DNA of 36,519 bases from Rhizobiales bacterium Ga0077524 (lineage in GTDB: Bacteria > Pseudomonadota > Alphaproteobacteria > Rhizobiales > Hyphomicrobiaceae), in contig LNDR01000395.1 of the NCBI GenBank assembly GCA_001464755.1, positions 1 to 36,519 of the forward strand, read 5' to 3'. Under the pieces are notes generated by a model. That model did no database searches, was not told where the DNA came from, and saw nothing but the letters and a program-made list of their open reading frames with translations. Each line of letters starts with the position of its first letter. Position 1 is the stretch's first letter. This document shows positions 5,073 through 9,638 of the stretch, piece after piece. The position numbers and the translations under genes are program-made.

Positions 5073-6569
5073 TCACGTCCCGCAGAATGTCTGCTTCACG
5101 ACCTCCTCGGGCTTCGGCGGCAGCGTGTAACGCTCACGCCCTGGCTGATCGTCGAAGGGGCGGGCCAGAACGGCAACGAGATCCTCAAAGGGCTGGAAGT
5201 CCTCCCGGCGGACGGCGGCGGCGATGGCCTCCTCCACCAGATGATTGCGCGGAATAAAGGCCGGGTTGGCCTGCCGCATGGCCTCGCGACGGACCGAGGG
5301 AGTGCCACTTTCCAGCTCGAGGCGAGCACGCCAGCGCGACGCCCACTCGGTGAAGACCGCCGGATCCTTGAAGCGCCCGGCGACCTTGGCGTCGGCCGAA
5401 GGAGCGGCGGCTGCATCGGCAAGGTCACGGAAGGTCAGGGTAAAATCCGCCTCTCCCTTGGTCATCCGGTCGAGCAGGTCGTGGGCAAGGTCGAGATCGC
5501 CGTCACGCGCCTCCATCAGGCCGAGCTTGGCGCGTAGCTCACGCGTATAGGCGGCCTCGAACAAGCCGCCAAAGCCCATCAAAGAGGCTTGTCCTGCTTC
5601 CAGTTGCGCCGCCTCAGTCTCGGCGAGTAGCGGCAGCAGCGTCTCCGTCAAGCGCGCAAGGTTCCACTGCGCGATCTGGGGCTGGTTCGCATAGGCGTAG
5701 CGGCCCTGGGCGTCGATCGAGCTGAAGACCGTGCCAGGGTGGTAGGTGTCCATGAAAGCGCAGGGTCCGTAGTCGATGGTCTCGCCGGCGATCGACATGT
5801 TGTCTGTGTTCATGACGCCATGAATGAAACCGATAGCGAGCCATCGGGCTATCAGCGCGGCTTGCCGGGCGATCACCGCATCAAGGAGTGCGAGGTAGGG
5901 ATTAGGCGCGCCCGCGGCTTCGGGATAATGGCGCGCGATGACGTGATCCGCGAGCTGACGAATACCGTCGGTGTCGCGGCGCACGGCAAAATATTGGAAG
6001 GTGCCGACTCGAATGTGGCTTGCCGCCACGCGCGTGAGCACGGCACCGGGCAGGGCCTCCTCGCGGAAGACGTGCTCGCCACTGAGAACGGCGGCCAGAG
6101 AGCGGGTCGTCGGCACCCCCAGCGCGTGCATGGCCTCGGCCACGATGTACTCGCGCAGCACGGGGCCGAGCGCGGCGCGGCCGTCGCCACGGCGCGAGAA
6201 CGGTGTCGGGCCCGAGCCCTTCAGCTGGATGTCGCGGCGAACACCGGCTCGATCAATGATCTCACCCAACAGCACGGCGCGCCCGTCGCCCAGTTGGGGA
6301 ACGAAGCCGCCAAATTGATGCCCGGCATAGGCCTGGGCGATCGGCTCGCTGCCGTGCGCGATCCGGTTGCCTGCAAGCACCTCGATGCCTTCGGGGCTGG
6401 CGAGGCGGGCCGGGTCGAGGCCGAGATCCCGGGCCAGCCTCTCGTTCAGCTTGACCAGGCGCGGGGTCGCAACCGGCGTCGGTGGCAAGCGGGCGAAGAA
6501 GCGGTCTGGCAGGCGCGCGTAGCTGTTGTCGAAGGCGAAGGGCGCAGCATGAGTCGCAGCGAGGGTCAT
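5073..6569 (-). CDS. selO: Protein adenylyltransferase SelO (YdiU family)
   Basis: A 498-residue SelO pseudokinase-fold enzyme, which transfers AMP from ATP to Ser/Thr/Tyr of target proteins and is linked to oxidative-stress responses. Visible signatures are [35 protein letters not shown] (Lys117), REY with Glu140, [12 protein letters not shown], and [19 protein letters not shown] with Asp256, Asn257 and Asp266. The protein ends in TFCGT with Cys496, where eukaryotic SelO has selenocysteine. The stop after it is TGA, but bacterial homologues normally end here, so it is a true stop. Length is normal for the family. It is a single gene, convergent with 4141-5013 and divergent from the CoA-transferase. 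Confidence 0.95.
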
Positions 6570-8016: not shown

Positions 8017-9093
8017 ATGCCTCTCGATATTGCGCGTGTGCACGAGGTGCCGGACGATCTGCTCGCCGCGATCGATTATTGCTACGAGCAAGGCTGGACG
8101 GACGGCCTCCCCGTCGTGCCGCCGACGGTGGAGCGCGTGCACGCGACGCTCGTCTACGAGGGCCGTCCAGCGGAGACCGTCGTCGCGACGCATCCGGCGA
8201 CGGGGCTCGAACTTTCGATCCACGCCACGGCGGTCAATGCCGCAATGGCCGGATGCCTGCCCGAGTACCTGCCGGTGCTGATTGCAGCCTTCGAGGCGAT
8301 GAACCAGCCCGATTTCAACTTCCATGGCTCGACAGCAAGCACGGGAGGTTCAGCGCCAATGCTGATTGTCTCTGGTCCAGTGGTCGACGACATCGGCATG
8401 AACGGGGACGTCAACCTTTTCGGTCCCGGCAATCGGGCGAATGCCACGATCGGGCGGGCCGTGCGCCTGATCCTGCGCAACGTCTTCCAGATGATCCCCG
8501 GCATCTCCGACAAGTCGACGCAAGGCAATCCCGGCAAGTACAGCTTCTGCATCGCAGAGCGGGCGAGGGGCAACCCTTGGCCGTTGCTTTGCGAGCAGCA
8601 AGGTTATCCGCAGGGGGTTTCGAGCGTCACCGTGTTCGCAGGCGGCGGGTTCTGCAATGTCGAAAACCACGGCGGCAATACGCCGGAGCAGGTGCTCGGC
8701 TCTGTCGCGGACGCTATGGCGAACTATGGTTGCATCACGCTCGGGCAGAGCGTCGTCGTCCTGGCGCCCGAGCACATGAAGATCGTCGCCGACGCGGGGT
8801 GGAGCCGACAGGACGCGCAGGCCTTCCTCTTCGCCCAGGCCAAGCGCTCGGTCGAGGGGATGCGAACCGTCGGCAAGTACCGCGATAGCGAGTACGCAAA
8901 GCAGCACGATGCCAAGGCGCACGCGCTGGTCCAGGAGGGCTTCGTGCACCGCGGCCTCACGCCGGACGACATCCTGATTACCCTCGGCGGCGGCGACGCG
9001 GGCGGCCACTCGTGCTTCATTCCCTCTTGGAGCCGGGGACGCGGCTCGATCATGCAGCACCGCGCCATCGGCGTGTGCATCGACTGCAACTGA
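8017..9093 (+). CDS. Conserved protein of unknown function, UGSC partner
   Basis: A 358-residue protein whose family I cannot name. It begins with an acidic/aromatic stretch followed by WTDGLPVVPPT (residues 27-37). It also has GDVNLFGPGNRANATIGRA near 130-148, GGGFCNVENHGGNT near 209-222, a Gly-rich ITLGGGDAGGHSC near 321-333, and ends in GVCIDCN. Cysteines at 333, 354 and 357 could be redox-active or bind metal. There is no signal peptide or clear membrane segment, so it is probably cytoplasmic. AGGAG lies about nine bases before the ATG. It sits 30 bases after the CoA-transferase and 23 bases before the selenoprotein, so a shared function is likely. Whether it handles the UGSC protein's substrate or is its reductant is unknown. 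Confidence 0.8.
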   Translation: MPLDIARVHEVPDDLLAAIDYCYEQGWTDGLPVVPPTVERVHATLVYEGRPAETVVATHPATGLELSIHATAVNAAMAGCLPEYLPVLIAAFEAMNQPDFNFHGSTASTGGSAPMLIVSGPVVDDIGMNGDVNLFGPGNRANATIGRAVRLILRNVFQMIPGISDKSTQGNPGKYSFCIAERARGNPWPLLCEQQGYPQGVSSVTVFAGGGFCNVENHGGNTPEQVLGSVADAMANYGCITLGQSVVVLAPEHMKIVADAGWSRQDAQAFLFAQAKRSVEGMRTVGKYRDSEYAKQHDAKAHALVQEGFVHRGLTPDDILITLGGGDAGGHSCFIPSWSRGRGSIMQHRAIGVCIDCN

Positions 9094-9116: not shown

Positions 9117-9638
9117 ATGCGACTCTACGATCCGACCTCCTCGGGACCGAAGCGGACGCTGCGGCGTGCGCCCCCGCTCGCCAGCCTCGAAGGCAAGACC
9201 ATCGGCGTCCTCGAAAACGGCAAGCTCAACGCGGCGGAGATGCTGGGCGAGGTGGCATTACTGTTCAAGGAGCGGCACGGTTGCACCATTGGCGCGGTCT
9301 ACTCGAAGAGCAATGCCAGCGCGCCAGCGCCCAAAGAAACGCTCGTCCAAGCCGCCCGGGAGGTGGATTTCCTCATCACCGGTCTCGGCGACTGAGGCTC
9401 CTGCTCAACGTGCAGTTTGCACGACGGACTGACTTTCGAGCAACTCGGCAAACGGACGGTTGTGCTATGCACCGAGCCGTTCGAGGTGACGGCTCGCAAC
9501 ATCGCCCGGGTCCTCGGCTGCGCTGACTATCCGTTCCTTCTGGTGCAGCATCCGATCGGGAGTTGCACCCTACCAGAGCTGAAACACAGGGCCGAAGTCG
9601 CCTATGCGCAAGCACTGCCGATCCTTCTGAAGGGCTGA
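9117..9638 (+). CDS. UGSC-family selenoprotein (in-frame TGA as Sec93)
   Basis: A 173-residue protein read through TGA at 9393-9395. Upstream of the TGA the frame gives MRLYDPTSSGPKRTLRR and ends ITGLGD; downstream it continues without a break as GSCSTCSLHDGLTFEQLGK to ILLKG, stop at 9636-9638. The join gives GLGD-U-G-S-C, the motif that names the UGSC (seleno)protein family. U93 with C96 makes a UxxC redox pair like the CxxC of thioredoxins. Relatives with Cys for Sec should exist. A hairpin of bacterial SECIS type begins just after the TGA. The start is the ATG at 9117, with a modest GACGAG upstream, 23 bases after the previous gene. Substrate and exact reaction are unknown. Standard callers will report two broken pieces. 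SelA, SelB, tRNA-Sec and SelD must be encoded elsewhere. Confidence 0.9.
9402..9442 (+). promoter_or_regulatory. Putative bacterial SECIS element
   Basis: Inside the selenoprotein gene, starting seven bases after the TGA. The inner hairpin is a perfect 6-bp stem CGTGCA/TGCACG (9409-9414 with 9418-9423) and loop GTT. An outer stem, TGCTC (9402-9406) with GAGCA (9438-9442), encloses it. The loop begins with G, and 19 bases separate the TGA from it. Both fit the published bacterial SECIS pattern (small apical loop, G in the first two positions, about 16-37 bases from the UGA). It would recruit SelB with Sec-tRNA. Confidence 0.75.

Follow-up and report, generated by a model that had tools for sequence, protein, structure and literature searches.

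The window analyzed here, a 36,519-nucleotide stretch of DNA from Rhizobiales bacterium Ga0077524, contains on its forward strand a UGSC-family selenoprotein gene (9117 to 9638) that begins with ATG at 9117, closes with a terminal TGA at 9636 to 9638, and encodes 173 residues when the TGA at 9393 to 9395 is read as selenocysteine (Sec). Read in this way, the frame has a single in-frame TGA, codon 93, which supplies the first residue of the U-G-S-C motif in the context GLGD-U-GSC-STC; the codon for Cys96, which would be the resolving cysteine in the U-x-x-C pair, follows at 9402 to 9404, and a SECIS-like hairpin at 9409 to 9423. An unannotated gene on the same strand (8017 to 9093), which we refer to as the partner gene, encodes 358 residues and stops 23 bases short of the UGSC start. 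It is preceded by a class III CoA-transferase gene (PF02515; 6721 to 7986, forward strand) that lies 30 bases upstream and may belong to the same operon. A SelO gene (protein adenylyltransferase, PF02696) occupies 5073 to 6569 on the minus strand, divergent from the CoA-transferase gene and 151 bases before it; its product ends in F-C-G-T and hence has no Sec at that position.

The in-frame TGA codon of the UGSC gene

The original prediction held that the frames on either side of TGA 9393 to 9395 are one and the same, joining as GLGD-U-GSC and staying open to 9638, and translation confirms this. It also anticipated that a normal annotation would truncate the protein, as does the standard open reading frame list, prepared without recoding, in which this frame breaks off at 9395. 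The 173-residue reading matches the Pfam UGSC family (PF24696) over nearly its full length, with 155.3 bits against a cut-off of 25 and residues 3 to 170 aligned to profile positions 2 to 170 of 172, which bears out the family identity that had been proposed. Because its score against the NCBIfam equivalog model NF041046 (115.9 bits) falls narrowly below the cut-off of 125, we call the window protein a member of the Pfam family only and not an NCBI equivalog. The family itself has been described before (PMC2398784), and this protein adds a member to it; the passages on UGSC there place the family among 20 major selenoprotein families, with 255 Sec sequences, in marine and fresh water. UGSC is given elsewhere as 8.2% of selenoprotein genes (PMC9402790), and the family is also listed in passages of PMC13188914, PMC9312934, PMC9402790, PMC5029168, and PMC7539508; the literature passages on the family give no function for it. 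A literature search for SAR202 selenoproteins found no paper.

Across 71 aligned UGSC proteins, with TGA read as C, residues P6, U93, C96, D103, F122, and P146 never vary, and K36, K64, and H145 are nearly invariant. A comparison of 13 loci with the orthologous gene (12 distinct, as L063 and L141 give the same values) indicates purifying selection on both sides of the TGA, with dN/dS well below 1, dN of 0.08 to 0.19 downstream of the TGA versus 0.08 to 0.28 upstream, and dS of 0.64 to 2.4, so that conservation after the TGA is no weaker than before it. All five UGSC copies of the window's genome have a single in-frame TGA. Among 40 genomes (its own and relatives), UGSC is present in five and absent from 35, and all 15 matches have one TGA. 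In 385 genomes of the class, UGSC occurs in 38; with at most eight candidates scored per genome, 101 matches are listed, which is a lower bound, and 96 of these 101 contain a single in-frame TGA and lack both TAA and TAG. Five have no in-frame TGA, one of them a fragment (profile positions 2 to 77) that ends before the motif. TGA-free forms include L178 and L179, with TGT at the Sec codon, and L177 and L180, which have no stop and carry Cys at the Sec position; L180, outside the 71-row alignment, reads C-G-S-S, so that the second motif cysteine is missing. Among the 76 UGSC copies in the named partner loci described below, 72 have TGA and four have TGC (L091, L097, L106, and L117), including those of Mycobacterium gordonae (L106) and M. 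szulgai (L117). Cysteine homologs with TGC or TGT at the Sec codon thus exist, and the frames of homologs run past this codon rather than all ending before it. Each of the eight TGA-free homologs examined has Cys at this position, and none has Trp.

A search of the window's genome (5.1 Mb in 415 contigs, 88.1% complete) for the Sec machinery found every component above its cut-off: a tRNA-Sec on contig C83 (70.7 bits, cut-off 47), called SeC with anticodon tca by ARAGORN, SelA on C252 (568 bits, cut-off 267.9), SelB on C285 (421 bits, cut-off 242.25), and SelD on C411 (252.7 bits, cut-off 125). Because 14 of 14 control genomes also match the tRNA-Sec, SelB, and SelD models at E ≤ 0.001, only matches over the cut-offs and the ARAGORN SeC call were used. 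At L010, in another genome, a tRNA-Sec match exceeds the cut-off yet is called tRNA-Ser by ARAGORN. When the SelA and UGSC lists for the 385 genomes were compared by eye, SelA exceeded its cut-off in 34 of the 35 genomes that carry UGSC with TGA, in one of three with only Cys forms, and in 21 of 347 without UGSC. The one exception with TGA forms (G050) has four TGA-containing UGSC matches and no SelA match in a genome that is 77% complete, and the absence is probably an assembly gap.

The SECIS-like hairpin (9409 to 9423, forward strand) consists of a 6-bp stem and a GTT triloop (9415 to 9417) with its G 20 nt after the TGA, and it is the minimum free energy (MFE) fold of the 48 nt that begin with the TGA. 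Because the 53-nt stretch has a different optimum structure, we applied a fixed rule to all distinct genes: a stem of at least 4 bp and a loop of 3 to 8 nt that starts 15 to 32 nt after the first base of the TGA and has G as its first or second base, in line with published criteria for bacterial SECIS elements. Of 119 distinct TGA genes, 115 have a hairpin that fits this rule, versus one of six Cys genes. In this set of related, nonindependent sequences, the TGA genes average −8.14 kcal/mol versus −2.12 for synonymous recodings (p ≤ 0.05 in 61 of the 119 and p ≤ 0.2 in 108), and the small sample of six Cys genes averages −0.65 versus −2.45. The hairpin of the window gene has p = 0.03 on the synonymous-codon null. 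Taken alone, the MFE of the 42-nt stretch behind the codon does not distinguish the classes (−15.89 for TGA genes versus −15.23 for Cys genes); only the placed G-loop hairpin does so. An Rfam search of the window at gathering thresholds returned only a tRNA and no SECIS.

Two other readings of the TGA can be weighed against these data. An assembly of 415 contigs at this completeness is of a kind that carries errors, and the TGA could be a sequencing error or a true stop followed by a decaying fragment. We reject this pseudogene or error reading as very improbable because a single TGA is present in 96 of 101 listed class matches; TGA also stands at the same motif in four further copies of the genome and in 72 of 76 named-locus copies, and the downstream codons are under purifying selection. 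Tryptophan at TGA throughout the organism (code 4), under which the frame would look identically open, is more improbable still and is likewise rejected, given that the UGSC gene and the neighboring partner gene both terminate in TGA, that the TGA-free homologs have Cys in eight of eight cases and never Trp, and that tRNA-Sec, SelA, SelB, and SelD are all present. From the sequence evidence, the window gene is almost certainly a real selenoprotein gene in which UGA 93 specifies selenocysteine, and the original interpretation is supported in this respect.

The partner gene and its pairing with UGSC

Searches of Pfam, NCBIfam, and PHROGs with the partner protein gave no credible match. Sequence searches of the PDB, run with profiles of the partner, of UGSC, and of PrdB-like proteins, likewise returned nothing credible, the best match being to a designed repeat protein (4.9e-4) with no stretch passing by itself. 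Cys80 of the partner (8254 to 8256, forward strand) belongs to a near-invariant N-x-x-M-A-G-C motif and is invariant in 10 aligned rows and present in at least 90% of 54 rows. At its C terminus, the window partner carries a lineage-specific tail with C-I-D-C (9076 to 9087, forward strand), so that the protein ends with C-x-x-C plus one residue. A CxxC within the last 30 residues is found in 36 of 118 complete partner entries, among which a few genes are counted twice, and in 15 of 79 among named loci. Tails differ by lineage (L090, L106, L117, L128, and L132 to L135), with C-x-D-G-x-C in some partners and C-x-D-C or no cysteine in others.

A scan of named genomes with a partner profile found at least 581 relatives, the best 80 of which were taken as loci. 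These 80 loci span Proteobacteria, Chloroflexi, Acidobacteria, Actinobacteria, Methylomirabilota, Rokubacteria, Binatia, and Poribacteria. UGSC is present in 75 of them and lies within 1 kb of the partner in 71, with both genes on one strand in 70 of the 71. The loci without UGSC are L094, L112, L120, L124, and L127; the L112 locus breaks off within the partner gene, and L120 and L124 are the two Poribacteria loci, both of which have the partner without UGSC. Across the 385 genomes of the class, the identical 38 carry partner and UGSC (lists compared by eye), with partner copies counted as a lower bound from at most five candidates scored per genome. Within the genus, partner homologs are immediate neighbors of UGSC, either upstream or downstream, or form fusions with its C terminus; as an exception, a subfamily represented by L044, L045, and L047 has no partner in its 3-kb loci. 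One partner copy of the window's genome lies on contig C359, where no UGSC match is listed, so the pairing holds per genome and not per copy. A fusion of UGSC to a domain termed Unknown_1 is reported in the passages on the family in PMC2398784.

Several of these arrangements have features of their own. In a fused UGSC-partner subfamily (L051, 1483 to 3210; L162 to L168, L170, L174, and L176), the motif reads G-M-G-C-U-G-S-C, placing a Cys directly before the Sec, and the two may form a vicinal S-Se pair; at most of these loci, a further partner copy starts downstream. On contig C374 of the window's genome (L185, 9818 to 11478), the UGSC and partner halves are in different frames, unlike in the G003 relative (L051, L181), which reflects either a split gene or an assembly error. 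A UGSC subfamily starting near L-L-D-P-T-G-E-H immediately precedes an enoyl-CoA hydratase gene in L183 (12257 to 13678, on contig C411 of the window's genome) and in L045, without a partner next to it. A CoA-transferase theme noted in the window, on C374, and on C411 was considered and set aside, as only five of the 80 named loci have such a gene within 3 kb and six at 3 to 8 kb. These neighbor counts for the named loci rest on 11 query proteins, acyl-CoA dehydrogenase and AMP ligase not being among them. No third fixed neighbor of the UGSC-partner pair was found around the named loci, and hence no pathway points to a substrate. Judged from gene order and co-occurrence, the product of 8017 to 9093 can with high confidence be proposed as a functional partner of UGSC.

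Predicted fold and probable relation to GrdB and PrdB

An AlphaFold2 model of UGSC built on the 71-row alignment (pLDDT 94.4) alternates strand and helix five times and places U93 between strand 3 (residues 85 to 91) and the helix at 94 to 108. Foldseek against the PDB returned alpha/beta proteins (best E of 1.8e-4 at a TM of 0.43), and VIA gave a best Z of 10.6, with 3.0 Å over 131 residues; because VIA Z scores of 7 to 8 are common, the PDB matches are taken to indicate fold class only. The predicted fold is a doubly wound alpha/beta sandwich. In the thioredoxin order, the redox motif follows the first strand. A thioredoxin fold, which has been suggested in print, is rejected because it does not agree with the model, in which five strand-helix units are predicted and the motif follows the third strand; this verdict rests on the model, since no fold is excluded by the lists of PDB matches taken alone. 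The natural fusion L051 was modeled with a pLDDT of 91.3 and a pTM of 0.91. A fold search with this fusion against the PDB gave no match at E ≤ 0.001, and its VIA list tests mainly the UGSC half.

Proteins resembling PF07355 occur in 11 of 115 class genomes. Of 20 PrdB-like loci fetched, the 17 readable ones were used, and their sequences have TGA in 14 and Cys in three cases at the Sec position, within U/C-P-x-C in 15 and U-P-x-D in two. The window's genome itself encodes three PrdB-like proteins, L197 (contig C329), L204 (C339), and L208 (C98), with TGA at the Sec position of U-P-x-C. All three match the PrdB model TIGR04483 at E of 5e-28 or better, below its cut-off, and by their sequences they are likely to be further selenoproteins that standard annotation would cut.

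Alignment of the 71 UGSC proteins with the 17 PrdB-like sequences by hhalign superimposed Sec on Sec (probability 78.2%, P = 1.8e-5, score 40.7), with homology spanning about 60 columns. The score was 46.5 (probability 89.4%) with the roles swapped and 41.1 with the four motif columns masked. By comparison, the reversed control scored 14.0, the best of 100 column shuffles 19.4, and the best of 20 other window genes 20.2. Four single PrdB-like sequences gave 21.2, 29.5, 36.3, and 36.3, the lowest of which is hardly above the 20.2 background. In family searches, 31 of the 71 UGSC proteins matched gly_red_sel_B (TIGR01917) at E ≤ 1, with a best value of 5.3e-7, and at the same threshold 16 matched GrdF (NF040794), 11 the mixed B family (TIGR01918), nine PrdB, and eight GrdH (NF040795); besides UGSC and the GrdB/PrdB group, no family was matched by more than three of the 71. 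In the reverse direction, one of the three PrdB-like proteins of the window's genome matches the UGSC model (E = 0.0026). These comparisons make it very likely that UGSC is homologous to the Sec domain of GrdB, the selenoprotein B of glycine reductase, and of PrdB from D-proline reductase. The window protein itself matches only UGSC models, with no match to the GrdB families at E ≤ 1, and does not exceed the cut-offs of PF07355, TIGR01917, or TIGR04483; by sequence it is a distant GrdB/PrdB relative and not a family member.

Searches for the pyruvoyl subunit GrdE/PrdA (PF09338) and for protein A (GrdA, PF04723) each gave no match in 115 genomes, but none in the control genomes either, and these zero counts speak neither for nor against the presence of the subunits. 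No partner-type gene was found in the 20 PrdB-like loci of about 3 kb each. Literature passages around the term UGSC contain neither a link to GrdB/PrdB nor a name for the partner beyond Unknown_1. The GrdB/PrdB link and the genome-wide pairing of UGSC with its partner may therefore be new, although they could stand elsewhere, for example in the text of Pfam.

Candidate function and comparison with known systems

According to passages of PMC10838667, the C-N bond of glycine is polarized so that Sec can attack it, and a carboxymethyl-selenoether is predicted from a fluoroacetate-specific GrdB-type complex. Cleavage of the C-F bond of monofluoroacetate is assigned there to FarE/FarB from genome and transcript data, FarE being without the pyruvoyl-forming cysteines and FarB without the CxxC residues. 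The reading of U93 and C96 as a redox center in the original prediction can be sharpened to that of a domain distantly related to the GrdB/PrdB Sec domain and linked to a partner. UGA 93 is very probably decoded by the organism's own SelA, SelB, SelD, and tRNA-Sec, aided by the hairpin just downstream, and we propose that the UGSC product would serve as the small catalytic subunit, and the product of 8017 to 9093 as the other subunit, of a two-subunit enzyme. We infer formation of such a complex from adjacency, fusion, and co-occurrence of the two genes. The predicted fold and the distant homology would put Sec93 where GrdB and PrdB carry Sec. Its selenolate could then act as the nucleophile toward a small organic molecule that the partner holds and polarizes, with reductive cleavage of a carbon-heteroatom bond, after which Cys96 would close on the selenium and an external thiol or flavoprotein reductant would reopen the Se-S bond. 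Two hints of a link to such a reductant are the C-x-x-C tail of the window partner and the pyridine nucleotide-disulfide oxidoreductase gene upstream of the C402 copy. As a whole, this explanation, a small Sec-containing catalytic subunit acting with its partner in GrdB-like cleavage, seems to us reasonably probable; for the chemistry taken separately, with selenoprotein, partner, and homology granted, we lean slightly toward the GrdB-like type by analogy.

Two alternatives grant the selenoprotein and dispute its chemistry. UGSC could be a general thiol-disulfide or peroxide oxidoreductase that has the partner as client or electron donor and cleaves no carbon-heteroatom bond. U-x-x-C is the usual redox arrangement, a pyridine nucleotide-disulfide oxidoreductase gene lies directly upstream of the UGSC copy on contig C402, and the window partner ends in C-x-x-C. 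Such a gene, however, lies within 3 kb of only one of the 80 named loci, the CxxC tail is confined to 36 of the 118 partner entries, the predicted five strand-helix units with Sec after strand 3 depart from the thioredoxin order, and GrdB/PrdB are the only families besides UGSC that more than three of the 71 members match. We therefore regard this oxidoreductase reading as unlikely. Less likely again, and in our view doubtful, is a non-redox role in which Sec93 acts as the nucleophile or a metal ligand of a lyase or transferase, with K36, K64, and H145 in acid-base catalysis. Many alpha/beta enzymes carry their nucleophile at a strand-to-helix turn, which is where the model places Sec93. The six invariant residues and three nearly invariant ones would suit an active site of this kind, and the Cys form L180 does without C96. 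The invariance of C96 across the 71 rows, however, is more in keeping with an Se-S redox pair than with a plain nucleophile, and the known relatives are reductases.

To return to the two-subunit enzyme with GrdB-like cleavage, a broader proposal, which we put forward only tentatively, is that UGSC and its partner constitute a separate class of two-subunit selenoenzyme, in which a minimal GrdB-like Sec domain is combined with a partner that replaces the pyruvoyl subunit for carbon-heteroatom cleavage of environmental compounds. Were this so, the several paralogs of one genome would each have a substrate of their own, and the class would extend across Proteobacteria, Chloroflexi, Acidobacteria, Actinobacteria, and also other bacteria, many of which, to our knowledge, are not known as amino-acid fermenters. 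The passages on the family rank UGSC with the commonest selenoproteins of marine and fresh waters, and annotation that stops at UGA hides the half of the gene after the Sec codon. The link to GrdB/PrdB and to a partner would turn an unknown redox protein into a concrete and testable two-protein enzyme.

Among known systems, the window protein is closest to the UGSC family itself (PF24696, NF041046), with which it shares a whole-length Pfam match, the U-G-S-C motif, the SECIS-like hairpin, and a predominance of Sec with rare Cys forms, although it scores under the NF041046 equivalog cut-off. PrdB (TIGR04483) and its short relatives align Sec over Sec with UGSC, with E-x-x-G-[IV]-P-T next and P-[LI]-G farther on, and PrdB-like proteins occur in the same genome; unlike UGSC, they mostly have U-P-x-C, with U-P-x-D in two, and a UGSC-type partner gene is absent from the loci searched. 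GrdB, GrdF, and GrdH, the selenoproteins B of glycine, sarcosine, and betaine reductase (TIGR01917, TIGR01918, NF040794, and NF040795), also have U-x-x-C with Sec, as listed in passages of PMC13188914, but their models extend over 431 to 435 positions versus the 173 residues of UGSC, and the UGSC partner matches no model. FarE/FarB of Cloacibacillus differ in coming from an anaerobe and in joining a GrdB relative to a GrdE-type second subunit, but, as described in passages of PMC10838667, they resemble the proposed UGSC-partner enzyme in that a GrdB-type Sec subunit is combined with a second subunit without pyruvoyl-forming cysteines.
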